Shown here: in pieces, positions 2,984 to 20,365 of the stretch
How positions within the stretch are numbered: the first letter of the stretch is position 1
Layout: each line of letters starts with the position of its first letter
Assembly (NCBI GenBank): GCA_003221455.1
Contig: QHRX01000021.1
Location: forward strand, 1 to 40,465
Direction of reading: 5' to 3'
Length of the DNA stretch: 40,465 nucleotides
Source of the DNA: Candidatus Rokuibacteriota bacterium
GTDB taxonomy: Bacteria > Methylomirabilota > Methylomirabilia > Rokubacteriales > CSP1-6
Notes under the pieces: generated by a model
Told to the model about the DNA's origin: nothing
Databases searched by the model: none
The model's input: the letters and a program-made list of their open reading frames with translations, nothing else
Translations under genes and position numbers: made by a program

Positions 2984-3061
2984 GGGCTCGTGGTGCAGCC
3001 TGGTTAGCACACTGGACTGTCAATCCAGAGGTCGCGGGTTCGAATCCCGTCGAGCCCGCCA
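2984..3061 (+). tRNA. tRNA-Asp (anticodon GUC), CCA encoded
   Basis: GGGCTCG/CGAGCCC acceptor, anticodon arm CTGGA-CTGTCAA-TCCAG, T-arm with GGTTCGAATCC, 3' GCCA. Confidence 0.95.
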
Positions 3062-3076
3062 TTAATTCAAGACCTT
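3021..3076 (+). repeat. Direct repeat copy 1: tRNA-Asp 3' end plus 15 bp (putative attL)
   Basis: caatccagaggtcgcgggttcgaatcccgtcgagcccgccattaattcaagacctt; 55/56 identical to 19280-19335. Confidence 0.9.
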
Positions 3077-3330
3077 CGCAGACGGCCGGCGCCGGTAGAC
3101 CCGTAGATTGTGCGGGAACTGTGCGGGAAGTCATTCTCTGGGGCGCCCCTGACGTGGCGCCATCGCCACCACCTTGCGCTCGGCTGCCCCGCTGGGAGCC
3201 GCCCAAGCGCGAATGTTGTAGCGCGCCGCATCTTATGTTCCCACCGTGAGCAGTCGAAATGGAGAGCACTCTCGGCCACGCGTCCGGTTCCCGCTTCACG
3301 GTGGGTCGTGGCGCCTCGGACTCGAAGCGT

Positions 3331-4962
3331 TCACGGGCGCAGGGGCTCGCCGGTCGCGGGATCGAGGAAGACCTGGCGCTCATCGGACCCGCGGTCGCTG
3401 AAGTCGAACATGTTCATCAGTGGTCCCGCGACGGCGTCGAACGACCCGCCGCCGATCCGGCCGGTACCCCAGTTGTCCTCGATGAAGCGCACGATCGAGC
3501 TCAGGTCGGTCAACGTGTGATCGACGAAGTTCCGCTTGGCGAACGGTGAGACCACGATGAGGGGGAGCCGGGGGCCGTAGCCGCAACGCCCCTGGATGGG
3601 CTGCCCGGCGTCGTCCCGTATTGGCATGCCGTCCCCGCAGTGGCCGGGCCCGTCGAGCTGGTCGTTGGCGAGCGCCGATGAGTTGACGATGGGACTCATC
3701 TGATGATCGTACCAACCGTCCGAATCGTCGTAGGCGATGATGACCGCGGTCTGCTCCCAGAACTCGGACTGCATGAGCGCGTTGAGCGTCATGACGAGGA
3801 AGGCCTGTTCCAGCAACGGATCGGAGTAGCCGGCGTGGCCGTCCGCATAGGCGGGCGCCTTGAGGAAGCTCACGGCGGGCAGGTTGCGGGCCCTGAGGGC
3901 GTCGAAGAAGTCGTCGAGATCGTACTGATGGTTGGCCCCGCCGTCGAACGACGTCCCGATGTTCAGCACCGAATTCGGCCGCGCATGCGTCGGGTTGGCG
4001 GTCGATACGTGGTACTGGAAGAACGCGTGATGCGGGATGTAGTCCTTGGTTGGACCAGCGTTCGCCGGCGTGGCCGGACTCTGTCGGTTGCACCCGGTGC
4101 TCCCGTCGGCGTTCGTCAGGGTGAGGTCGAAGCCGCCCATGAATGATCCCCAGGTCACGCCGTTCTCGTTCAGAAGATCACCGATGTTCCTTCCGCCGAG
4201 CCGGACGGTCGTCCCGGTGGAGCAGACATCCCCGGCCGGATCGAGATCCCCGATGATCGTGCCCGCCCCGACCACCTTCGGCGTGGGCGCGCTGGGAGTC
4301 GCCGGATATGTGTTGCCGGCGACGAGGTTGAGGAGGCCCGGCGTCGAGGGGCCGAAGGTCGTCCCGTAGAAGTTGTCGTTCATCGCGAAGTGTTGCGCGT
4401 AGTACCAGAGCGCGGTGACCGTGTTGCCGTCGAAATATCCCATCACTAGGCCCTTGCCCTTCTCCCAGGCGTAGGTGGAGGCGCAGGACTTGCCGGTGTG
4501 AGCTGGGAAGGCGTCCATCAGCCCCTGATCGAAGGCCAATTGCTCGTCCCCGTAGTTGTGGCCCTGATCGCAGGTCGACGCCTGCGAGCGGTCGAGGCGG
4601 AAGGGATTGATCGCATCGGCGCCGTTGGCGCCGTTGAGCGCATTAGGGTTCAGGGTAAGCAGGACCCCGCTCGGTTGACCGTTGATCAGCGTGCCGAGCC
4701 CGTTCACGGAGGGCGTCCCCTCGCGAGCCACAAAGAACGGTTCTCCGGGCGGATTCGCTGCGACCGGATAGGTCGCGAAATAGTGATCGAACGACACGTT
4801 TTCCTGGAAGATGACGACCACATGCTCGATCGGCGTCCCGGTGTCGGATCCGGCGCCGCCGGCGCCGCCGGGCGCGAGAAAACCCGGAGCGGCGACGAGA
4901 CTCATCGCGACTATGCCGGCCGCGACTCTGAGCAACACTCTGATCTTCCGCGTGACTCGCAT
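3331..4962 (-). CDS. Secreted phosphoesterase family protein (phospholipase C/acid phosphatase type)
   Basis: Signal peptide then PIEHVVVIFQENVSFDHYFATYP...IIAYDDSDGWYDHQMSP...CGYGPRLPLIVVSPFAKRNFVDHTLTDLSSIVRFIEDNW; ATG at 4962 preferred over the ORF-track start at 5100. Confidence 0.9.
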   Translation of the reverse strand: MRVTRKIRVLLRVAAGIVAMSLVAAPGFLAPGGAGGAGSDTGTPIEHVVVIFQENVSFDHYFATYPVAANPPGEPFFVAREGTPSVNGLGTLINGQPSGVLLTLNPNALNGANGADAINPFRLDRSQASTCDQGHNYGDEQLAFDQGLMDAFPAHTGKSCASTYAWEKGKGLVMGYFDGNTVTALWYYAQHFAMNDNFYGTTFGPSTPGLLNLVAGNTYPATPSAPTPKVVGAGTIIGDLDPAGDVCSTGTTVRLGGRNIGDLLNENGVTWGSFMGGFDLTLTNADGSTGCNRQSPATPANAGPTKDYIPHHAFFQYHVSTANPTHARPNSVLNIGTSFDGGANHQYDLDDFFDALRARNLPAVSFLKAPAYADGHAGYSDPLLEQAFLVMTLNALMQSEFWEQTAVIIAYDDSDGWYDHQMSPIVNSSALANDQLDGPGHCGDGMPIRDDAGQPIQGRCGYGPRLPLIVVSPFAKRNFVDHTLTDLSSIVRFIEDNWGTGRIGGGSFDAVAGPLMNMFDFSDRGSDERQVFLDPATGEPLRP

Positions 4963-5014
4963 GTGGTGGCCCCCCTTTTCGGCAAGCGATTTCGAGAGCG
5001 CATTCCACCCCCGG

Positions 5015-5062
5015 TGGACACCTGAAAACCGGCCAGTCGTGGACAGGTCAAAACCGGCCAGT
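5015..5062. mobile_element. Orphan IS21-type terminal repeat remnant
   Basis: Two tandem 23-mers tggacacctgaaaaccggccagt (5015-5037) and tggacaggtcaaaaccggccagt (5040-5062); no istAB nearby. Confidence 0.5.
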
Positions 5063-5324
5063 GGCGAGTGTCCCAAGCACGAGTCTTCTAACCTTTCCAC
5101 TTTGAAAGATCAAGCCGGCGATCAGCCTCAGAAGAAATGTTAGAGACGTCGGTGCCTCAAAATCGGTGTTACCGAGACCGGTACCGGAAAGGAGGCGCCG
5201 CGACGGACCGAGCGCGACAGGAATATGCCGAGGCGGCCAACGCGCGCCGCAAGCATGTGAAAAAAATGCGACGGTGCTGGAACACGGGTTCGAGCGGGGA
5301 GGCGCTAACCGCGCCCGCTTGGAA

Positions 5325-5345
5325 TATCCTCAAGTGCCGAGGATA
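5325..5345. promoter_or_regulatory. Inverted repeat upstream of DinB-like gene, possible operator
   Basis: TATCCTC-aagtgcc-GAGGATA, 12 bp before ATG 5357. Confidence 0.35.
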
Positions 5346-5356
5346 ATATCGGCCTC

Positions 5357-5845
5357 ATGCCGGAAGACGTCGTGCTCGACGAAATCGAGGCCTATGCTCG
5401 TGAACTCTCGTGGGTTCTTCATCAGATCCGCGTGTCCTTGGATGGACTCACGGCGGTGCAGCTCAACTGGCGTCCCTCGACTGCCGCAAACAGTGCGTAC
5501 GCCATTGCGAGCCATGTGATAGGAAGCACCACAGTGTATGCGCTCGGATTCGGTTGCGGCCAGGACGTTACGCGAGACCGCGCGGCCGAGTTCACCGCGT
5601 CAGGCACCGATGCCAGCGGGCTCATTGTCGCGATCCGTCAGCTTCAGAGGAAGCTCGGAGACGCGCTGGGGTCCCTCCGGGTCCCGGCGCTAGACGAGCG
5701 TATCTTGCCGCCGCCATACCTGTGGGGTACCGGTGAGCCCCGTGAAATCTCCCGGCGGGAGGCTCTCGTAGAGAGCATTAGACATGGAGCTCTCCACTTG
5801 GGTGAACTAAGGCTCACACGTGACCTCGCCGCGAAGGCGGCGTGA
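5357..5845 (+). CDS. DinB-like/DUF664-type putative metalloenzyme
   Basis: LHQIRVSLDGLTAVQLNWRPSTAANSAYAIASHVIGSTTVYALGF...ALVESIRHGALHLGELRLTRDL. Confidence 0.7.
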   Translation: MPEDVVLDEIEAYARELSWVLHQIRVSLDGLTAVQLNWRPSTAANSAYAIASHVIGSTTVYALGFGCGQDVTRDRAAEFTASGTDASGLIVAIRQLQRKLGDALGSLRVPALDERILPPPYLWGTGEPREISRREALVESIRHGALHLGELRLTRDLAAKAA

Positions 5846-5963
5846 GCGCCAGCGAGCACGAGGTCTGCCGGACTTCCAGTGGGCGATCGGGTTCCACCCC
5901 CGCACGCCCAGACCGTCGCCGGGCGGGTTTCGGCTTTCCGAGAGGAACCCTCGGGAGCACAAT

Positions 5964-6899
5964 GTGCGCGTGTGCTACGGCCTTCCGCGCTCCGGCCAGG
6001 AGCGCCTGCGTCCCCGAAGGTGCGCGATCGCCGTCTGGCTGGTCGTCACGCTGTTCTCGGCCGGCTCCGCCCGCGCGGGCGCGCCCGAGGAAGTACTAAA
6101 GGCGTATCTCGGCGCCCTCTACGCCCACAATTCGCGAGCGGCGTATCGGCTGATCTCACGCGCGGATCGGGCGCTCAAGGGCGAAGCGGACTATCTACGA
6201 GAGCACCCCAATTTCTCCGGAGCGGCGTTGGAAACCGCGACTGCTCTCGCCTCGCAGATCCGGTACGTCCGTCTCCGGACGGTGATAGAAGGAAACCGCG
6301 CCACGGTGACCTTCGAGGCGCTCGTGCCCGACGCCAACGATCCCGCGATCGACGCGCTGGTGCTCGGATTCGACGCCAATCGGCTTGCGGCACTGTCGCC
6401 AGAGGGCCGCCGGCGGATACAAGAAGAGCTCGACGAGAGGCAGCGCGCCGGCCGCCTGCCCGTCGCCGTTGGCCACGACGAGCGGTGGGAGCTTGTCAGA
6501 GAGCAGGGCGCCTGGCACATCTTTCTGAACTGGGCGGGGGCCGTCCGGATCCGTCTCACTGCCGACGTCAAGGCTGGGCTGCCGTGGGCGTTCGCGGCCA
6601 TCCAGCCCATCGTTCGCGCCACGCCCGGGGAAGAGCTCCGAGCCGCCTACCGGATCACAAACCTGTCGGACCGCTCCATCACCGGCCGGGCGCGCGACAG
6701 CTTTGAGCCTCCGGACGCGGCCAGATACCTCGACGTCATCACGTGTTTCTGTTTTATCGAGCAAACCCTCGCCCCCGGAGAATCCCGGGAGTTGCCGGTG
6801 GTATTCCGCGTGGCTGAGGAGGTCCCCCAAGGCGTGCGGGAGATCAGGCTTCGCTACGAGTTCTATCCCGTCGAGCGGGCTTCCGCCGGGTACCGATGA
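5964..6899 (+). CDS. Secreted NTF2-like/DUF4878-type domain fused to C-terminal Cox11/CtaG-like copper chaperone domain
   Basis: Signal-like CAIAVWLVVTLFSAGSARAGA; C-terminal half TADVKAGLPWAFAAIQPIVRATPGEELRAAYRITNLSDRSITGRA...YLDVITCFCFIEQTLAPGESRELPVVFRV...IRLRYEFYPV carries the Cox11 CFCF motif; start (GTG 5964/5970) is uncertain. Confidence 0.75.
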   Translation: MRVCYGLPRSGQERLRPRRCAIAVWLVVTLFSAGSARAGAPEEVLKAYLGALYAHNSRAAYRLISRADRALKGEADYLREHPNFSGAALETATALASQIRYVRLRTVIEGNRATVTFEALVPDANDPAIDALVLGFDANRLAALSPEGRRRIQEELDERQRAGRLPVAVGHDERWELVREQGAWHIFLNWAGAVRIRLTADVKAGLPWAFAAIQPIVRATPGEELRAAYRITNLSDRSITGRARDSFEPPDAARYLDVITCFCFIEQTLAPGESRELPVVFRVAEEVPQGVREIRLRYEFYPVERASAGYR

Positions 6900-7005
6900 G
6901 ACGTGTCCGCGCGGGCTGCCCATGCCGATCGCGAGGGCCTCCGCGACGAGACGCCCTCATCATCTGTCGAGCACCAGTCGGCCTCATGCCCGCGCCGGAT
7001 TCAGG

Positions 7006-7030
7006 GGAATAAAGAGCGGACGCGTACGTA
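7006..7030 (+). promoter_or_regulatory. Candidate ECF-type promoter of the sigma gene
   Basis: GGAAT (7006-7010)-16 bp-CGTA (7027-7030), ending 48 bp before the sigma start codon. Confidence 0.4.
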
Positions 7031-7078
7031 CTGATTGGCAGATGTTTCCCCAACGGGGGGGAGCGATCACTGGCCCGT

Positions 7079-7654
7079 ATGGACCCGGGTGAGGAATTCG
7101 AGGCGCTTACCGTTCAACATCTCGACTCGTTGCATGCCTATGCCCGCCTCCTCTCCCGAGACCGGCCGGCCAGCAAGGACCTCCTCCAAGAGGCACTCCT
7201 ACGGGCGTTTCGCGCCTTTGGGTCGTACAAGCGCCAGCTGAGCTTCAAGGTCTGGATGTTCACGATCATGAAGAACGTGTCGGTGGACTGGGCTCGGGGA
7301 GTGCGCGTTCGCCTCCTGGCGGGGGGGTGGCGGGAGAGCGAAGAGTGGTTCGCAGCAGGACACGGGGAGGATCCAACCCCCTCCTCCCTTCCCCTCGACC
7401 CCGAGCAAGTGCTGATTCGCAACGTGACGGTCGAGCAGGTGAGGGAGGCGATCAAGAATCTTCCCCCGGGGCTCCGCGAGGTCGTGGAGCTCCGAGAGAT
7501 TGAGGGACTGTCCTACCAGTCGATCGCCGAGGTGATCGGCCACCCGATCGGAACGGTGATGTCCAGGCTCTATCGGGGCCGGAACGTCCTGCGAGTCCTG
7601 CTGCGGGAGGCCTCGAGCGACACGGTGATATCGCGGCGTGCGCATGGTGTGTGA
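7079..7654 (+). CDS. ECF-family RNA polymerase sigma factor
   Basis: Region 2 (RDRPASKDLLQEALLRAFRAFGSYKRQLSFKVWMFTIMKNVSVDWAR) and region 4 (LPPGLREVVELREIEGLSYQSIAEVIGHPIGTVMSRLYRGRNVLR). Confidence 0.95.
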   Translation: MDPGEEFEALTVQHLDSLHAYARLLSRDRPASKDLLQEALLRAFRAFGSYKRQLSFKVWMFTIMKNVSVDWARGVRVRLLAGGWRESEEWFAAGHGEDPTPSSLPLDPEQVLIRNVTVEQVREAIKNLPPGLREVVELREIEGLSYQSIAEVIGHPIGTVMSRLYRGRNVLRVLLREASSDTVISRRAHGV

Positions 7655-8483
7655 TCTCGCGCGGCGGAGGTTTTTCCCCTACCTTGACGGCGAGCTCGCG
7701 GCCGAGGAACAAGCGTCACTGGAAGGCCATCTGTCCTGCTGTCCGGACTGCCAGCGCCTGATTCACCTCGAGCGAACGTTCCGGGCACGATACCTCGATC
7801 ATCTTCGCCCCGACCCGGCTCCGGAGACGGTTCGCCGGGAGGTGTCCCGCCTCCTCAACGGACTCTCCGACCACCACCCCGGGGGATCCGGCGGGCGGCA
7901 TCGCCGATCCTCGACGATCCGCTCGGTCGCCGTGGCGGTCGGAGTCTGCCTCGTCCTGGGCGGCGCCACTCTGGGAGTCGCGGTCCGACGGTGGTGGAGT
8001 GGGACGAGCGCGTCGCTGGTGCGACTGGCCGAAGCGTCGGTCGAACAGCACCAGAAGCTGACCCGTGGCCTCCTGCCGTATGACGTCCGGGGGATGAGCC
8101 CACGCCAAATGGAGCGGTGGTTCAGGGGCAAACTGGACTTCGACGTGAATCTGCCGGAGCTGCCGCGAAAGAACCTGGCGTTACTCGGAGGGCGAGTCTC
8201 GTCCCTCCGGGATATCGAGGTGGCGGCCCTTCACTACCAGCTCGACGGAAAGGACGTCTCGCTCTTTGTCATGCCGCTCGAGAAGTACCGTCAGCTGGGG
8301 TTGGCCGGGACCCCGAAGTTCAAGATCGTGACCTATCAAGGGTATGACGTCATCGCCTGGGCCTCGCACGGCGTGGCGTACTCGCTCGTCTCCGAGATCG
8401 GCGGCCAGTCATGCCTGGTCTGTCACTCGCCCGAGGAAAGACTGGATTTCCCGACCGGCTTCCGTGCGCACGGCATGCTCTGA
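7644..8483 (+). CDS. Transmembrane zinc-finger anti-sigma factor with periplasmic CxxCH heme-binding motif
   Basis: Overlaps sigma stop; N-terminal LEGHLSCCPDCQ (H-x3-C-x2-C), TM SVAVAVGVCLVLGGATLGVAV, C-terminal SCLVCHSPEERL (8412-8426). Confidence 0.85.
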   Translation: MVCDLARRRFFPYLDGELAAEEQASLEGHLSCCPDCQRLIHLERTFRARYLDHLRPDPAPETVRREVSRLLNGLSDHHPGGSGGRHRRSSTIRSVAVAVGVCLVLGGATLGVAVRRWWSGTSASLVRLAEASVEQHQKLTRGLLPYDVRGMSPRQMERWFRGKLDFDVNLPELPRKNLALLGGRVSSLRDIEVAALHYQLDGKDVSLFVMPLEKYRQLGLAGTPKFKIVTYQGYDVIAWASHGVAYSLVSEIGGQSCLVCHSPEERLDFPTGFRAHGML

Positions 8484-8543
8484 GCGCCCGCGTCCATGGC
8501 GGACAGCCGGCGGCCTGCGCGCAGGACAAAGGAGAGATCAGCG

Positions 8544-9275
8544 ATGTCCTGGGGTTTGGTTCTGATCCCGGCGGTACTGGTGGCGCTCCTCGCGTTCCCC
8601 GCGGCTCCGGCGTCGGGCTACGACGTCGTGACGGTCTCCAATGGGGGGACGATCCGGGGCAGGGTGACGTTTACCGGGCCGCCGCCACCGCCCCGCAAGG
8701 AGATCCGCACCAAGAACCCGGAAGTCTGCGGGAGCGGCGAGTTCGAAGTCCCGCAGATGGAGCTGGCCGCTGACAAGGCGGTCGGGGAGGCCGTCGTGTA
8801 CCTCAAGGGGGTCGAGAAGGGCGAGGCATGGGAGAAACTCGCCAAGCCCCCCGAGATCGTGAATCGCAAGTGCAGCTTTGTACCGCACGTCCAAGCGATG
8901 CCGGTCTCGGCCGGGGAGATCGTGATCGTCAACTCGGATCCGATCCTGCACAACACCCATGGGTACTACGGGAGGCTGACGGCCTTCAACGTCGGGCTCC
9001 CGAAGCAGGGGCTGCGGATCCCGAAGCCCCTCACGCGACCGGGGCTCGTAAAGGTTGATTGCGACGCCCACGGGTGGATGCTCGGGTGGGTCTATGTGGC
9101 GGACAACCCGTACTACGCCGTGACGTCGAGGGATGGGAGCTTTACGCTCAAGAATGTCCCCCCGGGCTCCTACACTCTCGTGGCCTGGCAAGAATTCACG
9201 GGTCCGGTTGAGGTGCCGGTCACCGTGAAGCCGACGGCCGTGCAGGCCGTCAACGTCGATCTGGCCAAGAAGTAA
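8544..9275 (+). CDS. Secreted cupredoxin/plastocyanin-like protein with carboxypeptidase-regulatory-like fold
   Basis: Signal peptide; GTIRGRVTFTG; copper-ligand-like pattern SDPILHNTHGYY...KVDCDAHGWMLGWVYV; GSFTLKNVPPGSYTLVAWQE. Confidence 0.8.
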   Translation: MSWGLVLIPAVLVALLAFPAAPASGYDVVTVSNGGTIRGRVTFTGPPPPPRKEIRTKNPEVCGSGEFEVPQMELAADKAVGEAVVYLKGVEKGEAWEKLAKPPEIVNRKCSFVPHVQAMPVSAGEIVIVNSDPILHNTHGYYGRLTAFNVGLPKQGLRIPKPLTRPGLVKVDCDAHGWMLGWVYVADNPYYAVTSRDGSFTLKNVPPGSYTLVAWQEFTGPVEVPVTVKPTAVQAVNVDLAKK

Positions 9276-9312: not shown

Positions 9313-10461
9313 ATGGATTCCCTCGAGCGAGAGCGGCGTGAACTCAACACGATGCTGCGGCGGCCCGGAGAGCGGCCGGACAGCTCCGTGCGGATCGACC
9401 GCCGGACCTTCATCCACAAGTCGATATTGTGCGGCACCGCCGCAGGCGCGGCGTCCTTCGGCTGGTTTCCGCTGCTCAACACCCTCGACGTCGCCTACGG
9501 GGCGGAGACGTTCAAGTTCGCGTGGATCTCCGACAACCATCTCTACCCCAAGGACGTCAACACGCGCTTCGTCGAGAAGGCCGTGCGCGCGGTCGAGGAG
9601 GTGCAGGCGATGACTCCGCCCGCCGACTTCCTGATCCATGGCGGGGATATCGCCCAGCTCGGGGATCCGGTCGAGATCGCGCTCGGCAGCGACATCCTCA
9701 AGGAGGCGAAAATCCGCAAGGTCTTCATCCCCGGTGAGCACGACTGGTACCTGGACATGGGCGCCACGTGGCGGAAGCACTTCGGCGATCCCAACTGGAC
9801 CTTTGACCACAAGGGGGTTCGCTTCATCGGCCTCGATACCGTGAGCCGTGCCCCGGACTACTGGTCGGCGAGGAAGATGAGTCCGAAAGAGCGGATGGGG
9901 GCGATGGCGACCTTGGACGGGAGCATCGGTGGCCCGTGGGCGGGCGTCGGCTCGGACCAGCTCCAATGGCTCAACCACACGCTCTCCAGCTGGCCGAAAG
10001 ATCGCCCGGTCATCGTCTTCAGCCACAACCCGCTCTACGAGTACTACCCGCCGTGGAACTTCTGGGTCCGCGACTGGCGGGAGGTCCAGGAGATCCTCAG
10101 GCCGTACACCAACGTGACCAACGTCCACGGTCACACGCACCAGGTGCTCTACAACGAGATCGGCAAGATGCGGTCGATCGGCATGCTGGCGACGTCGTGG
10201 CCCTGGCCGTACGCGCCGGAGGGGGTGCCGGACCTCACCAAGTGCATGGTGCGGGCCGATCCGGGCGATTACTTCGATGGAATGGGATGGGCGCGGCTCA
10301 CCGTCACCGCCGCCGAGAGGGTGCAGAACGAGTACATGATGTTCGGACGGAAGCCGCAGAACGTCTTCGGCGAGGCGCTTGCGGATTCGGGGTGTGCCGA
10401 CAACGTCAACCAGGAACTGCACCCGCGGATTGCCGATCGCGGGTGGTACTCCAAGGACTGA
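9313..10461 (+). CDS. Tat-exported calcineurin-like metallophosphoesterase
   Basis: DRRTFIHKS Tat-like signal; metal motifs ISDNHL, HGGDIA, PGEHDWY, FSHNPL, VHGHTH. Confidence 0.9.
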   Translation: MDSLERERRELNTMLRRPGERPDSSVRIDRRTFIHKSILCGTAAGAASFGWFPLLNTLDVAYGAETFKFAWISDNHLYPKDVNTRFVEKAVRAVEEVQAMTPPADFLIHGGDIAQLGDPVEIALGSDILKEAKIRKVFIPGEHDWYLDMGATWRKHFGDPNWTFDHKGVRFIGLDTVSRAPDYWSARKMSPKERMGAMATLDGSIGGPWAGVGSDQLQWLNHTLSSWPKDRPVIVFSHNPLYEYYPPWNFWVRDWREVQEILRPYTNVTNVHGHTHQVLYNEIGKMRSIGMLATSWPWPYAPEGVPDLTKCMVRADPGDYFDGMGWARLTVTAAERVQNEYMMFGRKPQNVFGEALADSGCADNVNQELHPRIADRGWYSKD

Positions 10462-10965: not shown

Positions 10966-11832
10966 ATGACCGAGGCCACGGCCGCACGGCCGTCGAAGGT
11001 CACCCGGCGAGGGTTCGTGCGCCTGGCTTCGGCGGCCGTGGGTCTGCTGGCCGAGGGGAAGGTCGGCCGCGCGTGGGGTGGTCTCCCGCGCCAATATTTT
11101 CGTGGTGAGCTGCCGGGCGACCTCTCGGCGTTTGAGCGCCTCCACGCTCCGATCCTCCGGCTGCCCCCGGCGACCGCCAACGGCGCCCGGGTGCCGATCG
11201 TCGTCGCACTGTCTCATCCGATGGAGCCGGGCCAGTACGTCAAGCAGATCCACGTCGTCAACGAGCGCGATCCCGTGCCGTCCAAGGGCGTCTTTCATTT
11301 CACGCCCGCCAACGGCCAGGTCTACCTGGCGTTTCAGGCGAGGCTGGATCAGGGCGTCTCTGAGGTGGCGGCGACCGCCGAGTGCACGCGCCACGGACGC
11401 TGGACGAGCGCTCGGTCCGTGACCATCCCGCCCGGCGCCGGTGGCTGCGCCGGCAGCGCGCCCCCGCCCGGCGCTATCAGCGCGACCCAGATCCTCCCAC
11501 CGCGCATCCGGATTCCCCAGGTGATCAAGCACGGCGGCATCCGGCCCGACGAGCTCATCGACGTGCAGCTCGAAATGCGGCATCCGAGCCAGACGGGGCT
11601 GGCGGTCCGGGACGGGAAATTCGTCCAGGTCTCGGCACCGTTCTACCTCGACGCCATGGAGGTTTTCTATGGCGAGCAGCGGGTGAGCTGGTTTGCGCTG
11701 ACGCCGGCGCTCAGCGACAACCCGTTCATCACCTTCCGGGTGCGCGCCCAGGGGGAGGGGCCGCTTCGGGTCGTGGTGACGAACAATCGCGGACGGCGGT
11801 TCGAGACGACCTATCCGATCCGTTTCTCCTGA
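10966..11832 (+). CDS. SoxY-SoxZ fusion (sulfur carrier) with Tat-like signal
   Basis: TRRGFVRLASAAVG; SoxY-like VPIVVALSHPMEPGQYVKQIHVVNERDPVPSKGVFHFTPANGQVYLAFQARLDQ...; GAGGCAGS (Cys codon 11446-11448); SoxZ-like IDVQLEMRHPSQTGLAVRDGKF...VSWFALTPALSDNPFITFRVRAQGEGPLRVVVTNNRG. Confidence 0.88.
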   Translation: MTEATAARPSKVTRRGFVRLASAAVGLLAEGKVGRAWGGLPRQYFRGELPGDLSAFERLHAPILRLPPATANGARVPIVVALSHPMEPGQYVKQIHVVNERDPVPSKGVFHFTPANGQVYLAFQARLDQGVSEVAATAECTRHGRWTSARSVTIPPGAGGCAGSAPPPGAISATQILPPRIRIPQVIKHGGIRPDELIDVQLEMRHPSQTGLAVRDGKFVQVSAPFYLDAMEVFYGEQRVSWFALTPALSDNPFITFRVRAQGEGPLRVVVTNNRGRRFETTYPIRFS

Positions 11833-11853: not shown

Positions 11854-13215
11854 ATGGCCGTCGATGTCACAGTTCGCAACGATGCGCTCATCAACAAGGA
11901 TCTGATCCGACAGTGGCTCCTGTGGGGGCTGTTCTGGCTGATGCTGTTCCCTACCGTCGGCGTCATCGCGTCGACCAAGTTTGTCTTCCCCGACTTCCTG
12001 GGACGCATCCCGTGGCTCACCTTCGGGCGCATCCGGCCGATCCACGTGAACGGGGTCATCTGGGGCGCGTACTCGACCCTCTTCATCGGCCTCTCGTTGT
12101 ACATCGTCCCGCGCCTCGCGGGAGCCCGGCTGTGGAAGGAGCAGTGGGACTTTGCCCTCCTGTGGGTGTGGAACCTGAACCTCGCCCTCGCGGTGGTCCT
12201 GCTCGCCCTCGGGTGGAACCGAGGCTGGGAGGCTGGCGAGTTCGCCGAGGTCAACAACGTCGTCATCTTTCTCTCGCTCCTCGTGCTGACGGTCCAGTTC
12301 CTCATGACCATCAAGAACCGGAACGAGGCGCCCCTCTACGTGTCCCTCTGGTACTTGATCGCCTCGTTCATCTGGACGGACGTCAACCTGATCGTGGGCA
12401 TGGTCGGGCCGTACAGCTTCCCCGGAGTCAACAACGTCGCCCTCCACGGCCTGTTCATCCATTACGTCGTCGGGCTCTGGATCACGCCGACCGGCTACGT
12501 CCTCATCTACTACTTCCTGCCCGCCAGTGTCCGGAATCCGATCTACAGCCACAAGCTCTCCCTGATCGGCTTCTGGTCGCTCGCGCTCTTTTACCCGCTG
12601 GTTGGCATCCATCACTACCTCTACTCGCCCCTCCCGGACTGGGCGGAGACCATCGCGATCATCTCCTCCGTCCTGCTGATCATTCCCGTGTGGACGGTCC
12701 TCCAGAACTTCTTCGGCACCATGATCGGCAAGTGGCAGGGCTTCAGCCAGAACCTTCCCGCCAAGTTCCTGATCACGGGCTCGATTCTCTACCTCTTCGG
12801 ATGCTTTCAGGGCTCGACCGAGGCGCTCCGGTCGCTGCAGCAACCGACGCACTTCACGGACTTCGTGATCTCGCACTCCCACCTCACGGTGTTCGGAACG
12901 TTCGTCCTCTGGGCGCTGGGCGGCGTCCTCTACGTCTGGCCGAGAGTGACGGGCAGAGAGCTCTGGAGCTTCAGGCTCGGCAACTGGGGGTTCTGGCTCA
13001 TCACGGGCGGCATCTCGGCCATGGGGCTGATCCTGTCGGCCCAGGGACTCACCCAGGGCTTCATGCTGATGCAGCAAGCCGAGTGGATGGACACCGTCAT
13101 TACGATGCGACCGTACTGGTTCTTCAGGACCTTCACCGGGATCTCTATGGACCTCGGCATGTCGCTCATCGTCTACACCCTCATGAAGACTTCCCTCGCG
13201 AGAGGCGCCGCGTAA
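11854..13215 (+). CDS. ccoN: cbb3-type cytochrome c oxidase subunit I
   Basis: Heme-copper ligands in GRIRPIHVNG, FIHYVVGLWIT, FYPLVGIHHYLYSPLPDW, SHSHLTVFG. Confidence 0.92.
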   Translation: MAVDVTVRNDALINKDLIRQWLLWGLFWLMLFPTVGVIASTKFVFPDFLGRIPWLTFGRIRPIHVNGVIWGAYSTLFIGLSLYIVPRLAGARLWKEQWDFALLWVWNLNLALAVVLLALGWNRGWEAGEFAEVNNVVIFLSLLVLTVQFLMTIKNRNEAPLYVSLWYLIASFIWTDVNLIVGMVGPYSFPGVNNVALHGLFIHYVVGLWITPTGYVLIYYFLPASVRNPIYSHKLSLIGFWSLALFYPLVGIHHYLYSPLPDWAETIAIISSVLLIIPVWTVLQNFFGTMIGKWQGFSQNLPAKFLITGSILYLFGCFQGSTEALRSLQQPTHFTDFVISHSHLTVFGTFVLWALGGVLYVWPRVTGRELWSFRLGNWGFWLITGGISAMGLILSAQGLTQGFMLMQQAEWMDTVITMRPYWFFRTFTGISMDLGMSLIVYTLMKTSLARGAA

Positions 13216-13229: not shown

Positions 13230-14891
13230 GTGCGCGGCATCAGGTCATTGGCCATCGGCGCGGGCTTCGCCTGCATTACGGCGGCGCTCTTCATCCAGTG
13301 GTTTCTCCCGGAGATGATCCCGGCGACGCATGAGCGGCGGGTGACGCGCGCCGTCCGAACCGACCTGGGCGAGATCAAGTGGATCCGGTACGAATCGAGC
13401 GACTATACCCCGCTCGAGCGACTGGGCCGGCGTGTCTACACCCGAGAGGGGTGCTGGTACTGCCACAGCCAGTACGTGCGCCCCGTCACGGGGGAGGACA
13501 TCCGCTGGGGGCCGGTCTCCGAGGCAGGGGAGTACGCGTTCGACCTCCCGCATCTCTTTTCGACGCGGCGCATCGGTCCGGACCTCACCCGGGTCGGTCT
13601 GAAGTACGGGGACGATTGGCACTACGCGCACCACTGGGACCCGAGGCTCGTCGTGCCGGACTCGATCATGCCGAGCTTCACCTGGCTGTTCGTCCAGATT
13701 CGAGTGCCGGCGCACCGGGCGGGCGACACGCTGACGCTCGACCCGGTACCCGCGATGCGGCGGTACTTCACGATGAATGCGGCGAAGCCGATCCCGATCT
13801 ACCCGAACGAGGACGGCCTGATCTTCGTCCACCCGCGGCCGGATGGCGAGTTCCCGATCGACGGCACGCCCCAGCTCGACCTCACCGCCTACCAGGCCCA
13901 TCCGCCCGTGCCGGCATTCCGGTCGGCCCTCCTCCTCATTCCGACGAAGGAGCTGGTGGGACTGGTCGCCTACGTCCAGAAGCTCGGAATGAACCGGGGC
14001 GCGTGGCGGGAGGTCTTCGAGCCCCAGACCGTCGACGTCTCCGCCATGCGGATCCCGGAGAGCGAGATGCTGCTCGCCCGGGGACGGGCCGTCTTCGCGC
14101 AGCGGTGTATCGGCTGTCACGGGGCCAAGGGCGACGGCAACGGCGTCGCGGCGACGTTCCTGTCTCCCCGGCCCCGCGATTTCACCCTCGGCGAATTCAA
14201 GTTTCGCACGACACCGTCGGGCTCGCTGCCCACCGACGGCGACCTCTTCCGCACGATCACCCGAGGCGTCCGGTGGACTCCGATGCCCACGTGGCATGAG
14301 GTTCCCGAGAACGACCGGTTGGCCGTCGTCCAGTACCTCAAGAGCTTTTCAGATCGCTGGCGACAGGAGAAGCCTCCGGCGCCGGTCTACGTCCCCGATC
14401 CCCCCGCCCCAACCCCTGAACTCCTGGCGCGAGGTAAGGAGCTCTACAACAAGGTCGCCAAGTGCTGGCAGTGCCACGGTGACGGCGGCAAGGGGGACGG
14501 ACCCTCGGCCGACGAGCTCAAGGACGACTTCGGCTTTCCCATCCGACCGACCGACTTTACGCGGGGCCAGTTCAAGGGCGGCTCACACGCCCGGGATATC
14601 TACCGGACCATGACGACCGGGCTCGACGGCACGCCGATGCCGTCCTTCGTCGACTCCATGACGGCCGACGAACGCTGGGCCATCTCCTACTATGTCTTGT
14701 CGTTCTCGGCGTGGGGTGATCCGCTGACCGGGCAGAAGCTCAGGATTTCGCCGCAGGCCAAGGCGGCGCTCGATTCGCCAGCCGTACGCGCGGGCTCGCC
14801 CCGGCTGGCCTATGATCCGGACCGAACGCCCACCGCGCTCTCGAAGCGAAACGCCACGCCACGGGCGGCGGCGGACAGGGAACAGGAATGA
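13230..14891 (+). CDS. ccoO: CcoO fused to two C-terminal cytochrome c domains (CcoO-CcoP-like, triheme)
   Basis: N-terminal TM; GCWYCHSQYVRPV (13452-13466), CIGCHGAKGDG (14106-14120), CWQCHGDGGKGDG (14463-14477); GTG start. Confidence 0.9.
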   Translation: MRGIRSLAIGAGFACITAALFIQWFLPEMIPATHERRVTRAVRTDLGEIKWIRYESSDYTPLERLGRRVYTREGCWYCHSQYVRPVTGEDIRWGPVSEAGEYAFDLPHLFSTRRIGPDLTRVGLKYGDDWHYAHHWDPRLVVPDSIMPSFTWLFVQIRVPAHRAGDTLTLDPVPAMRRYFTMNAAKPIPIYPNEDGLIFVHPRPDGEFPIDGTPQLDLTAYQAHPPVPAFRSALLLIPTKELVGLVAYVQKLGMNRGAWREVFEPQTVDVSAMRIPESEMLLARGRAVFAQRCIGCHGAKGDGNGVAATFLSPRPRDFTLGEFKFRTTPSGSLPTDGDLFRTITRGVRWTPMPTWHEVPENDRLAVVQYLKSFSDRWRQEKPPAPVYVPDPPAPTPELLARGKELYNKVAKCWQCHGDGGKGDGPSADELKDDFGFPIRPTDFTRGQFKGGSHARDIYRTMTTGLDGTPMPSFVDSMTADERWAISYYVLSFSAWGDPLTGQKLRISPQAKAALDSPAVRAGSPRLAYDPDRTPTALSKRNATPRAAADREQE

Positions 14892-15064: not shown

Positions 15065-15239
15065 GGGGGAAGGGAAGTACGGCCCGCTCGAGACGTACGC
15101 CCAGGGCGAGATCAAGGCCTATCACGGCATCGTGAACAAGTGGCTGCTCGTCGTCTACGCGCTCCTCGGCCTGTGGGCCGTCTATTACCTGTTCAAGTAC
15201 TGGGGCGGGCTCGGGCCGGGTTTGGGCGTCGGGGGGTAG
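15045..15239 (+). CDS. 64-aa single-pass membrane protein
   Basis: MRDERSEGEGKYGPLETYAQGEIKAYHGIVNKWLLVVYALLGLWAVYYLFKYWGGLGPGLGVGG. Confidence 0.65.
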   Translation: MRDERSEGEGKYGPLETYAQGEIKAYHGIVNKWLLVVYALLGLWAVYYLFKYWGGLGPGLGVGG

Positions 15240-15252
15240 GGCGGAGACGGCG

Positions 15253-15357
15253 ATGCGGACAGAGCGACTGATCCTCGCGTTGGCGCTGCTCAATATGGCA
15301 TTTCTGGTCTTCGAGATTCTCTTCAACTCGTTGTCGGACGTGATCTCGCTCTTGTAG
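15253..15357 (+). CDS. 34-aa membrane microprotein
   Basis: MRTERLILALALLNMAFLVFEILFNSLSDVISLL*; tightly spaced between neighbours; below the ORF-track cutoff. Confidence 0.5.
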   Translation: MRTERLILALALLNMAFLVFEILFNSLSDVISLL

Positions 15358-15370
15358 CAGGAGGGACCCG

Positions 15371-15466
15371 ATGAGCGGCATCGAACGGCTCGCCTTCTCC
15401 ATCTTCCTCCTCGGCATGGTGGGCTTCTATGTCTGGGTAGGGATTCTGTCCTTCAGAAAAAAGTAG
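15371..15466 (+). CDS. 31-aa membrane microprotein
   Basis: MSGIERLAFSIFLLGMVGFYVWVGILSFRKK* preceded by aggaggg; its stop abuts the next ATG. Confidence 0.5.
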   Translation: MSGIERLAFSIFLLGMVGFYVWVGILSFRKK

Positions 15467-16351
15467 ATGTGGGAGTGGCGACCGGAGGTCCTGGTCCCGC
15501 TCGGCCTGGTGGCCATCGCGTCCGGCGTCGGGTGGTGGCGGCTGTCGGAGCGCGGCCCACGAGCGGTCCCCCGGTGGCGCCCCGTGCTGTTGGCGGGCGG
15601 CCTCACCGCCGTCGTCGCCGCCCTCCTGTCGCCGATCGCGGGCACCGCGCACGCCCGCTTCTCGACTCACATGATCCAACATGTGCTGCTCGTCATGCTG
15701 GCGCCACCCCTCTTTTTGCTCGCCGATCCGTTGCCGGCGGTCCTCTGGGCGTTGCCGAGGCGCGTGCGTCTGGCGGCGGGGCGGTTGCTCGCTCCCGGCG
15801 CGCTCCTCAGACGACTCTGGCGCGCGCTCACCTGGCCCCCGGCGGCGTGGCTCGTCTCGGCGCTCGCCCTCTGGCTCTGGCACCTTCCCGGCGCGTACGA
15901 GGCGGCCCTGCGGGACGACCTGCTTCACGACGCGGAGCATCTCGTGCTCTTCTGGGCCGGCATCCTGGGCTGGTGGCCGCTGATCGGGCCCTCCCCGCGA
16001 GTCCGCGGCCACCTGGCCTATAGCCTGCGCGTGGTCTACCTGGTCCTGACTGGCGGGCAGCAGGCGTTGCTCGGGTTATTGCTGTCGACGAGTCCCGTGG
16101 TGCTCTACGGCTCGTACGAGGCGGGGGCGGCGGCGCGGGGCCTGAGCCCGCTCGACGACCAGGCCGACGGCGGCGTCATCATGTGGGCAACCAGCGGCGT
16201 CGTCGGCCTCGTCACGCTGATGGTGCTCATGTACCGCCTCTTAGCGCAGGAAGACCGGCTCCCGCCGATCGAGGGCCAGCGGGCCCTGCCGCCGGCGACG
16301 CTCCCCTCGCGGGAGACGCTCCCCTCGCTCCTCCCGTCCGCCCACGATTGA
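15467..16351 (+). CDS. ctaG: Caa3-type cytochrome c oxidase assembly factor CtaG
   Basis: HMIQHVLLVMLAPPLFLLADP...AWLVSALALWLWHLPGAYEAALRDDLLHDAEHLVLFWAGILGWWPLIG. Confidence 0.9.
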   Translation: MWEWRPEVLVPLGLVAIASGVGWWRLSERGPRAVPRWRPVLLAGGLTAVVAALLSPIAGTAHARFSTHMIQHVLLVMLAPPLFLLADPLPAVLWALPRRVRLAAGRLLAPGALLRRLWRALTWPPAAWLVSALALWLWHLPGAYEAALRDDLLHDAEHLVLFWAGILGWWPLIGPSPRVRGHLAYSLRVVYLVLTGGQQALLGLLLSTSPVVLYGSYEAGAAARGLSPLDDQADGGVIMWATSGVVGLVTLMVLMYRLLAQEDRLPPIEGQRALPPATLPSRETLPSLLPSAHD

Positions 16352-16377
16352 CCGAGGACCGCGGCGGCCGCCCTGCG

Positions 16378-17625
16378 ATGAAGAACCGCGTGCTGAGTAT
16401 CCAACGGCGAGCGGCGCGGCCCGCAGCCAGCAGCGAGCTCGACATCGCCCGACACGGGCCAGCCGGTCCCGGGCGCGCCCTCTACGACCACCTGTTCGGC
16501 CAGCGCTGGTCGGTCATGGGGTCGTCCTTGGCTCTCGGGGCGATGAATGTGTTCCTCTTCGCCTTCGACCGACCGTGGACTGCGTCCGATGGCGTCCGGA
16601 ATTGGGGCGACGCGTTCCTGCATCGAGTCGGCGTTCTCGATGGCGGTGACCTCGTGTCGCCCTGGCTCTACCTGGGTTCGCTCCTCAACCTCGGTCTGCT
16701 CGCTGGGGCGTTCGGGGCCGCGCTCCTGAGCCGGGAGTTCGCGGTCCGGATCGCACCCGCGGGCGAGCTCCTCAAAGGGGGGCTCGGCGGGCTCTTGATG
16801 GGGATCGGCTCCGTGTTGGCGTTCGGCTGCAACATCGGCGGGTTCTTCAGCGCCCTCTCGGCCCTGTCGCTCTCAGGCCTGGTCATGATGATCGGACTCG
16901 GGATCGGCGCCTACGCCGGTCTCCGCTACGTCCTGTGGGAAGTGGAGCACTGGCCCGGGCTGAGCGAGGGCGGGGCCCGTCGATTCGGTGTGCCTGGCTC
17001 GACCCGGATCGGGTGGCAGCCGGCCACCGGCGTGTTCGTCCTTGTCCTGGCGCTCCTCGGCGCGCTCGCATACGACGAGTCGGGTTACACGCCGCAGGGA
17101 GGCTTCCTGCTCTTCGGGGTGACGTTCGGAGTCATTTTGCAGCGGTCCCGATTCTGCCTCGTCCGGGCGTTCCGCGAGCCGTTTATGACGGGCGACGGCG
17201 AGCATACCCGGGGGGCGGCCTTGGCGCTCGTCGCCAGTATGGTGGGATGTTCCATCCTCAAGTTCACCAATCTCAAGGATCCCGGCGACTGGGTGTTCCC
17301 CGGATGCTGGGTCGGGGCCCTCTTCGGAGGGCTCCTATTCGGCTTCGGAATGGTCCTGGCAGGCGGCTGCGGCGCCGGAGTGATCTGGCGCGCCGGCGAG
17401 GGACACGTCAAGCTCTGGGTGGCAGTGGGGATGTTTGCCCTTGGGGCGTCGTCGACACGGCTCCTGCTGACGTGGCTCGATCTCCTCGACCGCCTCGGGG
17501 TCGCCGTCTTCCTCCCCTCGATCGTGGGCTGGGGAGGCGCGATGCTACTGGTCGGCGCGCTGATGGCCGCCTGGTACGTGTTCGCGACCTGGAACGAGCA
17601 GTCGAGGACCTTCAGTTTACTGTGA
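16378..17625 (+). CDS. YeeE/YedE (TsuA-like) sulfur-compound/thiosulfate transporter
   Basis: Two-repeat membrane protein with conserved Cys motifs VLAFGCNIGGFFSALS and LAGGCGAGVIWRAGEGH. Confidence 0.9.
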   Translation: MKNRVLSIQRRAARPAASSELDIARHGPAGPGRALYDHLFGQRWSVMGSSLALGAMNVFLFAFDRPWTASDGVRNWGDAFLHRVGVLDGGDLVSPWLYLGSLLNLGLLAGAFGAALLSREFAVRIAPAGELLKGGLGGLLMGIGSVLAFGCNIGGFFSALSALSLSGLVMMIGLGIGAYAGLRYVLWEVEHWPGLSEGGARRFGVPGSTRIGWQPATGVFVLVLALLGALAYDESGYTPQGGFLLFGVTFGVILQRSRFCLVRAFREPFMTGDGEHTRGAALALVASMVGCSILKFTNLKDPGDWVFPGCWVGALFGGLLFGFGMVLAGGCGAGVIWRAGEGHVKLWVAVGMFALGASSTRLLLTWLDLLDRLGVAVFLPSIVGWGGAMLLVGALMAAWYVFATWNEQSRTFSLL

Positions 17626-17730
17626 CGAGGCTCGTCGCCACGAACGCGCCAGTTGACCGGTAGGGCACTCGCCGATCCGGCCGGGGGAGCCTGGCGGCGA
17701 CCAGAAGATCGAGAACCGGCGTGAGGACGT

Positions 17731-18363
17731 TCAGATCCCGCTCGCCGGCAGTTGGAAGCTGGGACGCGTCGGCGCCGGCCGGTCCGCGCCGGCCATGAGG
17801 GAGGTCGACCCACCCAGGCATTCAGAGGGGTTCTCGTACGCCACCAGGTCGGCATGACCCGTCCGGGTGCGCCCCCCGGCTGTTCCATTTACTGTAGTGG
17901 CGCAGCACACTCTACCGTCGTGTCGACTCGCAAGCGCGCCCCGCGGGTTCACCCGCCGCTGCCGAGCGATCTGCACCACTCGCTCCAACATGGGCGTGAG
18001 CGTCTCGGGGCCGAGAAGGTGCGCGAGGCGGATCAGCGTCTTGGCGTCGGGCACGCGCTCGCAATCGATGGGACAGAAGGCCCGATAGACGAGGCTGGCC
18101 CGGACCTCGCGCTCACATTCGTCGAAGCTCCAGTTATGGAGATGCTTGAGCAGAAGCATGCGGAGGACGACCGCGGCGGGCGTTCCGAGGCGCCCGCGAG
18201 CGCCGCTCAGCGGGTGGCGGCGGAGAGCGGCGGCGACGAGGTCGACGAGGTCTTCATCGTCCAAGAGCTCGTCGATCGCCCGGAGCTCGGGGGCCCAGAG
18301 CTTGTCACCATCGGGCAGCAGTATCTCGAAGACGCTGCGTTGCGCATACGCGCGACGGACCAT
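17731..18363 (-). pseudogene. IS5/IS1182-like DDE transposase, N-terminal half only, frameshifted
   Basis: MVRRAYAQRSVFEILLPDGDKLWAPELRAIDELLDDEDLVDLV...CEREVRASLVYRAFCPIDCERVPDAKTLIRLAHLLGPE; expected ..VDTTVVE.. follows in a shifted frame, then homology ends. Confidence 0.8.
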
Positions 18364-18909
18364 GGCGCCCCATCGAGACGGGTCGGCTACGGTGTGCTGG
18401 CGATGCGAATGTCGACGCGAACATCACCGACGACGATGAGGCCCAACGAGCGCAAGCGTCAAGGAAATTGAGCGTTCTGTCGATGGCGCGACGGCGCTCC
18501 CCCGCGAGCGCCGTGCCTTCTGCACCGGGAAGTAGCTAGCGGCTTCGAGCACTCCCTCACGTCCCATGCCGGCAGCGCGCGGGCGCCCAGCCCGTGACAA
18601 GCCGTCCAGCAGGCCGCCCGGGGACGAGTTCGACAGGCTACGCTACGGCCCCGAGGCGGCCACCACGGACTGGACGATGCGTGACGACTCCACACGCTGA
18701 AGACTAAGAATCATCGCAAATATGCAGCGGCCCGCGTATGCGGGAGAACGCCACGACGTCACAGCGACTCGTTAAAGATTCTCAGCTGTCAAGATCGCTG
18801 CATTTGGTTGGGTAGACCCGATTCACGGGGAAACCGCTTTTCTCCAGACGGTAGGCAAGGGGTGCGTACTCGCGCGGACACCGGACCTGGGACCTTCGAA
18901 TAAAGGGGC

Positions 18910-19008
18910 GGCACGGGCAAATACAAGGGAATCAACGGCAGCAATACCTTTGTTGGCGTTACCCAAGTGAACTGGCAGGACGGTACGTCAACAGGCTACG
19001 CGACCTAG
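18910..19008 (+). pseudogene. Short degraded coding fragment
   Basis: GTGKYKGINGSNTFVGVTQVNWQDGTSTGYAT* reads as the tail of a beta-rich secreted domain, ending at a TAG. Confidence 0.35.
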
Positions 19009-19252
19009 AATCGCTAATCGCGCCGGCAGCCTGGCTGGCGGCGGCTCCGCCGTCGCCGGTTTCGGGATGGTGCCAGGCAACACGCGTAGGGCGGCGTGCC
19101 CGCGCTCGCTTGCGCTATCTTGCGCTGAACGAACCGGGAAACGATGTGATTTCGAGTGCGCGCCTGTCGGCTGAGTGCGTCTGTGACGCGAGCGGTCAAC
19201 GCAAGAAGCTTCAAGCGGATCGAGAAGTTATGCGAAAGTGAGCGAGAAAAGA

Positions 19253-19277
19253 GGGGGCCGGCCTTGCGCCGGCCCCC
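19253..19277 (-). terminator. Strong GC hairpin adjoining the distal tRNA-Asp repeat
   Basis: GGGGGCCGGC-cttgc-GCCGGCCCCC; on the minus strand followed by CTCTTTTCTC. Confidence 0.55.
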
Positions 19278-19279
19278 GA

Positions 19280-19335
19280 CAATCCAGAGGTCGCGGGGTC
19301 GAATCCCGTCGAGCCCGCCATTAATTCAAGACCTT
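19280..19335 (+). repeat. Direct repeat copy 2: tRNA-Asp 3' fragment (putative attR)
   Basis: caatccagaggtcgcggggtcgaatcccgtcgagcccgccattaattcaagacctt; 1 mismatch (3039 vs 19298). Confidence 0.9.
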
Positions 19336-19718
19336 AGTCGACCCGACTCGACGTCGACAGATGTCGACTTGTCCCGGACTTGTCCCTTTCTCGGCCAGCC
19401 TCGTCTTCACCCTCGGGCTGAGAAGATCGGGAGCTACCAGCTGCTGAGGAGCCCCAATCCAAGAGCCAGCGGCCGGAGCCTGAGCACTCCTCGCGAGAGT
19501 CGGCGAGAAGTTCGCCCCGTGCAGGCGGAGTGCGCGGCGGACCGAGCGGATCAACAGAACGCGAAAAATCGACGCTGTCGATCCGAAGGGCTCCCGTTCG
19601 ACTACAATAGCGCGAGCCTATGGAAGGAGGGGACTGGCAGAAGTGGGCCGAGAAGGACCGGCGGAAGAATGTTCCAGGAATCCGGCGACCGAAAGCATCT
19701 CCTTAGGAGGCTGACGTC

Positions 19719-20165
19719 ATGACAATCGTGAAAAACGTGGTACTGGGGTCGTTTTTGGCCGCGCTCGCCGGTGTCTCGTACGTTGCCGGTGCGGTCGCCG
19801 CCGATACGGGCACGATGATCCCGGCGGGAGAGATCGTCTTCGAGCCCATCGCGCCGGATTCGCCGGTGCAGGTCGCGAAGCTATGGGGGGATCGGAGCCA
19901 GGGCGAGCACGGCATGCTGCTCAAGATTCCCGTCGGATTCGAGGCGGGACTTCACTCGCACACCGGGGACTACCACGCCATCAACCTCCAGGGCACCTGG
20001 GTGCACACGCTGGCGGACGGCCAGACGAAAGAACTCCCCGCCGGATCTTACGTGATGCAGCCGGGTGTGCAGAATCACAACGATGTCTGCAAGGGCCCGA
20101 ACGACTGCATCCTCTTCATCTATCAGAAGGTAAAGGGCGACTTCATCCCGGCCAAAGCACAGTAG
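19719..20165 (+). CDS. Secreted cupin-like (DUF4437/ChrR-type) protein
   Basis: Signal peptide; LKIPVGFEAGLHSHTGDYHAINLQGTWVHTLADGQTKELPAGSYVMQPGVQNHNDVCKGPNDCILFIYQKVKGDF. Confidence 0.8.
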   Translation: MTIVKNVVLGSFLAALAGVSYVAGAVAADTGTMIPAGEIVFEPIAPDSPVQVAKLWGDRSQGEHGMLLKIPVGFEAGLHSHTGDYHAINLQGTWVHTLADGQTKELPAGSYVMQPGVQNHNDVCKGPNDCILFIYQKVKGDFIPAKAQ

Positions 20166-20313
20166 GTACTCGTGGCCGTTGCCGCTCGTGCCGCATGAAA
20201 TGGGCGAGCATCGCGGCAGTCGCGGTTCTGGCAATGTCGCATCGCCGCCCTGACGCGAGCTCGTCGGCGGGTGTTGAGGCGATCGAAAATATCTCGGCGG
20301 GACCCAAGCCCTT

Positions 20314-20365
20314 CCAGAAGGCGCGGGCTCAAGTCCCGTCGAGCGCGCCATTAATTCAAGACCTT
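20314..20365 (+). repeat. Direct repeat copy 3: diverged tRNA-Asp 3' fragment
   Basis: ccagaaggcgcgggctcaagtcccgtcgagcgcgccattaattcaagacctt; about 46/52 identical to the tRNA copy, last 16 nt exact. Confidence 0.8.

Follow-up and report, generated by a model that had tools for sequence, protein, structure and literature searches.

What placed three copies of the 3′ end of a single tRNA gene in tandem on a Rokubacteria contig? The window that we analyzed is the whole of contig C303 (40,465 nt) of genome G000, a metagenome-assembled genome (MAG) of 4.41 Mb in 336 contigs (94% complete, 4.86% contamination), and it was compared with a family set of 100 relatives, among which G001 and G002 are congeners of G000. 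It carries an intact tRNA-Asp(GTC) followed by two displaced copies of its 3′ end, which divide the intervening DNA into two units. Very probably, this array consists of tandem, integrase-less islands flanked by attachment sites, of the cis-mobilizable element (CIME) or accretion type, that stem from two insertions at tRNA-Asp.

Three tRNA-Asp 3′ ends and a positional repeat

ARAGORN found two tRNAs in the window, tRNA-Val(TAC) at 155-231 and tRNA-Asp(GTC), and Rfam also called the latter, bearing out the intact tRNA-Asp of an initial annotation of this DNA. A repeat-finder recovered a three-copy family, with spacings of 16,259 and 1,030 nt (Table 1). Its core, the final 41 nt of the tRNA plus 15 nt downstream, recurs at copy 2 just as that annotation had it; the more diverged third copy is also present, although it starts at 20313 and not at 20314. 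Over about 37 consecutive nt, copies 1 and 2 are identical, and the match of copy 3 begins at tRNA position 41. Neither copy 2 nor copy 3 has the tRNA 5′ half, and both start close to, or exactly at, the usual breakpoint. When up to 3 mismatches were allowed, a 31-nt core pattern matched the window 3 times, at exactly these copies, and 0 times in 100 dinucleotide shuffles. No further tRNA-Asp 3′ copy at such a level occurs elsewhere in the whole 4.41-Mb genome, and thus the three fragments are not a dispersed repeat, an alternative that the initial annotation had itself raised. An intact tRNA gene (tDNA) with a cognate 3′ fragment, in one orientation on one replicon, is what the program Islander treats as an island; three copies with one common attachment core (tRNA end plus 15 nt) are what tandem accretion leaves; and left and right attachment sites (attL and attR) that are kept, by sequence, while the recombination genes are lost define a CIME. 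Tandem accretion also describes the arrangement better than the "nested" element first proposed.

The DNA behind these copies has a second regularity. Perfect 10-nt tandem repeats of period 11-12 occur exactly twice in the whole window, TGTGCGGGAACTGTGCGGGAA at 3109 and GACTTGTCCCGGACTTGTCCC at 19366, behind the tRNA and copy 2 respectively, and no comparable tandem repeat lies behind copy 3. The integrase-bearing tRNA-Asp ends of relatives likewise show a tandem repeat with a 10-nt unit and a period of 11-12, some 45 nt past the tRNA. Repeats of this period matching at 9 or more of 10 positions were found at +38 to +60 in 8 of 54 tRNA-Asp ends or copies, against 0.125 expected from dinucleotide shuffles; all 8 start at +43 to +47, and two of the three perfect ones come from the window. 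Among other G000 tRNAs, tRNA-Val(CAC), with an adjacent integrase, and tRNA-Arg(TCG), with an integrase remnant, have the repeat at +46; it is not present at the integrase-adjacent tRNA-Glu(CTC) and tRNA-Ala(GGC), nor at 13 other tRNA ends. We take the repeats to be putative arm-type binding sites, by analogy with lambda-type integrases. Because they follow copies 1 and 2 and not copy 3, element 1 would run from the tRNA to copy 2 and element 2 from copy 2 to copy 3.

The fixed distance between repeat and tRNA offers a simple footprint for decayed tRNA islands that integrase-based programs overlook, and it also shows which side of each tRNA fragment belonged to the element.

tRNA-Asp in relatives and probable traces of an integrase

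The tRNA-Asp gene was matched in 68 of the 100 relatives. Copies of its 3′ end alone (E<=1e-8) occur in 11 genomes (G000, G004, G010, G020, G021, G023, G024, G029, G030, G042 and G057), with weaker ones in G050 and G031. Across the family they mostly start at tRNA position 33-36, around the anticodon, and extend through CCA, which fits a crossover in the anticodon loop. The DNA on the 3′ side of tRNA-Asp is different in nearly all relatives, and that on the 5′ side is partly common to some. For example, G050 and G021 have common flanks beyond the 3′ copy and different inserts, and relatives therefore show alternative islands at one locus, another sign that Islander uses. In G020, a 368-aa integrase gene (PF00589, 2.8e-19), convergent with the tRNA, ends 6 nt from the tRNA-Asp 3′ end and has an HTH_17 gene behind it. 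Convergent integrases or fragments also adjoin this end in G042, G009, G024 and G010, which with G020 makes at least five genomes. By these sequence comparisons, tRNA-Asp is an integration hotspot across the family.

Multiple copies also recur. An integrase-free 14-kb contig of G029 bears tRNA-Asp and two more copies of its 3′ end; the tandem repeat follows the tRNA at +47 and the first copy at +45, and the genes between the copies include a transporter, a methyltransferase and an AhpC-type gene. In G042 the inner of two copies is followed by an integrase tail; the two copies in G020 lie 17 kb from each other, and an integrase tail follows one of them. The hotspot, the integrases of relatives, the arm-like repeats behind the tRNA and copy 2 only, and the double anatomy of G029 together uphold the suggestion that this is a tyrosine-recombinase tRNA island built by two insertions. 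As a separate observation, in G008, G054, G056 and G032 (L194, L200, L201 and L197) tRNA-Asp has an integrase or remnant on its 5′ side, directed towards it.

Within the window, a profile built from the relatives' integrases found no intact integrase at E <= 1, and tblastn found none either. The earlier statement that no integrase ORF (open reading frame) is recognizable thus holds for intact genes, but the search for remnants that it recommended turned up a probable degenerate tail directly behind the first repeat. Here the minus strand behind the 3109 repeat reads DAARYNIRAWAAPSGAAERKVVAMAPRQGRPRE-stop; the integrase of G024, at a matching distance from tRNA-Asp, reads ...RRYSIVDEVDIEQAIEGVQKFVSQQAQTERKVVAFPQRP-stop. 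ERKVV is the sole 5-residue match of the G024 tail in a six-frame translation of the window, and at the DNA level the match of that tail at this position ranks first window-wide. We consider 3131-3232 a probable integrase tail remnant, and the initial view of an immobilized element is supported along with the island reading as a whole. Elsewhere in G000, integrases or remnants are convergent on the 3′ ends of tRNA-Glu(CTC), tRNA-Ala(GGC), tRNA-Val(CAC) and tRNA-Arg(TCG) (contigs C233, C237, C138 and C212; L232, L233, L235 and L239).

Based upon these data, the following history can be proposed. Elements with tyrosine integrases would have used tRNA-Asp(GTC) as their chromosomal attachment site, with a crossover in the anticodon-loop region restoring the tRNA 3′ end each time. 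A first insertion would have left copy 3 as its distal scar, and a second, later insertion at the regenerated tRNA would have left copy 2; since a new element enters at the regenerated tRNA, we infer that copy 3, distal and more diverged, dates from the older event. Both elements would have inserted with the integrase end on the tRNA side and both integrases would since have been lost, one tail probably persisting. What remains would be a 16.26-kb unit, with an ECF (extracytoplasmic function)-sigma/SoxYZ/cbb3-oxidase/CtaG block and other genes, and a 1.03-kb cupin unit. That the whole 16 kb arrived as one element is likewise what we infer.

Cargo and competing explanations

The features of the array are listed in Table 1. 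No RNA genes were found inside the island with Rfam. The gene order of the SoxYZ/cbb3-oxidase block is also conserved in other genera. The order of the sigma-to-CtaG block is kept in G003, G005, G006, G014 and G015 and partly in G001, G002 and G033, and no tRNA-Asp was found on the relatives' contigs that bear it; in G000 the block is single-copy. Its oxidase subunit I is 80% identical to that of G015, 77% to those of G005, G006 and G033, and 69-71% to those of the congeners G001 and G002. In a FixO tree, G001 and G002 pair together outside a 26-row group that contains the window (98/96 support); the FixO protein relatives are named Candidatus Rokubacteria or Rokuibacteriota MAGs, of soil and groundwater origin. 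As G001 and G002 are without rpoB, core DNA was used as the measure of relatedness instead, and identities of mostly 80-86% between G000 and G001 and mostly 78-91% between G000 and G026 place G000 about equally near both. The block may have been acquired from another lineage, or it may reflect an old duplication with differential loss; the sequence data fit either history. Two different cbb3 subunit I/II versions lie within about 10 kb of each other in G015 and G033 (L087 and L100).

Table 1. Features of the tRNA-Asp array, in window coordinates
Feature	Position	Strand	Evidence
Intact tRNA-Asp(GTC), target gene; 3′ part is the left attachment site	2984..3061	+	ARAGORN; Rfam 72.2 bits
attL core, final 41 nt of tRNA-Asp plus 15 nt downstream	3021..3076	+	repeat family D1
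Perfect period-11 tandem repeat, integrase arm-site-like, starting 47 nt after the tRNA	3109..3129	+	window scan
Probable integrase C-terminus remnant (RYNI...ERKVVA...stop), with internal gap and upstream in-frame stop	3131..3232	-	aligned to G024 integrase tail
Phosphoesterase (PLC/acid phosphatase family), cargo	3331..5100	-	PF04185 8.8e-71
Pair of 24-nt direct repeats, also present in other genomes; putative scar resembling insertion sequence (IS) ends	5014..5062	.	repeat-finder, genome comparison
DinB-family protein, cargo	5357..5845	+	PF12867 7.1e-07
CtaG/Cox11-like oxidase assembly protein	5820..6899	+	PF04442 6.3e-28
ECF sigma factor, with which the conserved block begins	7079..7654	+	PF08281 6.8e-15; order conserved
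Zinc-finger protein, putative anti-sigma factor	7638..8483	+	PF13490 3.1e-08
Carboxypeptidase-regulatory-like domain protein	8496..9275	+	
Metallophosphoesterase	9313..10461	+	PF00149 2.7e-10
Fused SoxY-SoxZ-like carrier	10966..11832	+	PF13501/PF08770; TIGR04557 5e-27
cbb3-type oxidase subunit I-like (CcoN)	11854..13215	+	PF00115 3.5e-70; TIGR00780
cbb3-type subunit II (FixO/CcoO) fused to cytochrome c domains	13230..14891	+	PF02433 1.9e-41; tree
CtaG oxidase assembly factor	15467..16351	+	PF09678 7e-56
YeeE/YedE (TsuA-like) sulphur transporter; true start probably within the ORF	16183..17625	+	PF04143 1.2e-49
Truncated transposase, retaining the DUF772 N-terminal part of a 496-aa DDE enzyme	17731..18363	-	PF05598 3.4e-11; intact relative L211
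Copy 2 of the tRNA-Asp 3′ end; boundary between elements 1 and 2 (right end of the former, left end of the latter)	19280..19335	+	98% over 56 nt
Perfect period-11 tandem repeat, arm-site-like, starting 45 nt after the end of copy 2	19366..19386	+	window scan
Cupin (ChrR-like) protein, sole recognizable gene of element 2	19719..20165	+	PF14499/PF12973
Copy 3, distal and probably oldest 3′ fragment of tRNA-Asp; closes the array on the right and is not followed by an arm-like repeat	20313..20365	+	89% over 53 nt

The conserved DNA at 17914-18507 was considered as an unknown gene and rejected, being the truncated transposase. Further right, the intergenic stretch at 19100-19248 has copies of 80-82% identity in G000 contig C11 and G002 contig C104. 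A strong GC hairpin (GGGGGCCGGC...GCCGGCCCCC, 19253-19278) stands immediately left of copy 2; it was rejected as a boundary signal, none being evident left of most other copies. The cupin of element 2 has a close relative only in the congener G002, among 60 genomes.

Several results weigh against the reading of the array as two integrated islands. An empty site, in which tRNA-Asp and TTAATTCAAGACCTT would run into the sequence after 20365 or 19335, was not found in any relative, and no relative joins tRNA-Asp to DNA right of 20365. Two candidates for such a site were rejected: a 6-kb contig of G001 carries both tRNA-Val and tRNA-Asp, but what follows the latter has nothing in common with the window beyond 20365, and the cupin contig of G002 bears no tRNA fragment and diverges at window position 19705, about 14 nt upstream of the start codon. 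The right-flank genes (20790, MreB and others) lie on other contigs in relatives, which makes right-side synteny uninformative; rearrangement of this flank is family-wide. Island composition and GC content match the genome with no outlier, and the comparison of composition with the flanks, as first suggested, does not set the island apart. For the short integrase tail, whole-window blastn gives an E of 0.024, and no intact integrase, excisionase or transfer gene was recognized in the island. The repeats are putative arm-type sites by analogy, to which an integrase would presumably bind. Finally, the cargo block belongs among the common gene clusters of Rokubacteria and is not typical phage or integrative and conjugative element (ICE) cargo.

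The last point bears on whether the 16.2 kb is a single cargo. The scars could be real and the unit composite: a small decayed element to which the sox/cbb3 block and its neighbors were added later by IS-mediated or homologous recombination, rather than as integrase cargo. The truncated DDE transposase and the IS-end-like repeats inside the unit would suit this, as would a sox/cbb3 block that is an ordinary family gene cluster elsewhere, the lack of a composition break, and a stretch from 3131 to 5000 with no mobility gene except the integrase tail. However, the single-copy block sits between two matched attachment ends with no second genomic copy, the versions of the block in the congeners are not its closest relatives, and chromosomal-type genes lie between such ends in G029 and G020 too. 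We therefore regard a composite origin as possible, if somewhat doubtful. A different question is whether the units are still mobilizable, as strict CIMEs would be, with an integrase from elsewhere in the cell or from an incoming element excising them via the retained attachment and arm-like sites. Nearly intact cores (98%), arm-like repeats that match at 10/10 positions in both cases and integrases that the genome encodes beside tRNA-Glu, tRNA-Ala and tRNA-Val would favor this; yet these resident integrases are at other tRNAs and copy 3 is 11% diverged, and we think such mobility unlikely.

Two explanations would dispense with the islands altogether. A MAG contig could have been mis-joined at the common 37-nt tRNA end, uniting unrelated segments, and the fragmentation and contamination of the assembly, like the exact stretch shared by copies 1 and 2, give this some plausibility. 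A mis-join is nevertheless highly unlikely: copies 2 and 3 lack the tRNA 5′ half and start at or near the usual breakpoint, the repeats behind the tRNA and copy 2 are both at the expected distance, and G029 has a like structure independently. Alternatively, the tRNA 3′ end could have been duplicated by slippage or gene conversion, free of any integrase, and the duplicated length is indeed only about 53-56 nt. The family hotspot, the consistent near-anticodon breakpoint, the adjacent integrases and the positioned arm-like repeats make plain duplication scarcely credible. Two integrase-mediated insertions at tRNA-Asp are the explanation that we favor.

Relation to known islands

The mechanism is ordinary and the type of event well known; what is usefully added is the footprint of positioned repeats and the role of tRNA-Asp as a hotspot throughout the family. 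In the CIMEs of Streptococcus thermophilus, which are related to ICESt1, integration and transfer genes are lost while attL and attR are kept (PMC5704250). The array resembles these in having tandem elements at the 3′ end of a gene with attachment ends kept, but differs in its host (Rokubacteria), its target (tRNA-Asp) and its respiration-block cargo, and mobilization of its units is hypothetical. The nearest ecological parallel is the array of Dehalococcoides islands at ssrA that carry vcr/rdh genes, a tandem array in which several islands are without an integration module and respiration genes are carried (PMC3146451). Both arrays stand in tandem behind one RNA gene, with 3′-end repeats and respiration genes. 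However, Dehalococcoides uses a serine recombinase and the transfer-messenger RNA gene (tmRNA/ssrA), and neither that recombinase module nor that target is found here: the target is tRNA-Asp and the enzymes of relatives are PF00589 tyrosine integrases. Among the tRNA islands cataloged by Islander, crossover in the anticodon loop is one of two main classes, and an integrase gene in the interval is required (PMC4383910). Our array shares with them an intact tDNA and a displaced 3′ fragment in one orientation and falls in the anticodon-region crossover class; with only a probable tail remnant in place of a tyrosine integrase gene within the interval, it would be missed by Islander and is not a member. 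Nor does it qualify as an ICE, an integrative and mobilizable element (IME) or a prophage, for the main ORFs gave Pfam matches to metabolic genes only, not to a relaxase or phage structural genes, and no intact integrase was found. The main ORFs tested include no conjugative transfer gene; nothing indicates that the ancestor was an ICE or IME, and no ICE or IME relative with matching ends and cargo was found.

A narrow search found no literature on tRNA islands in Rokubacteria, and the window points to an insertion hotspot in this uncultured phylum that was detected without an integrase gene in the island. The array also suggests how blocks of respiration genes may have moved in soil Rokubacteria. 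A much bolder proposal is that, across the family, Rokubacteria maintain stacked metabolic islands behind tRNA-Asp that have no integrase of their own but do have working attachment and arm sites, and that integrases acting in trans still move them, exchanging electron-transport blocks such as SoxYZ/cbb3 between genera; we hold this to be distinctly unlikely.

Two observations concern the ends of the window. At the contig start, 2-121 on the plus strand falls within an integrase C-terminus (GHKTRSVFDR-stop-DIVSPADL...; tblastn E 6e-8 against a G002 tail) that lies 34 nt before tRNA-Val(TAC) and has a stop codon at the expected catalytic tyrosine; it is probably what remains of a second decayed element, beside tRNA-Val. 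Near the other end, at about 38044-38348, lies a repeat of about 300 bp with at least 6 other copies, 94-96% identical, in the G000 genome.

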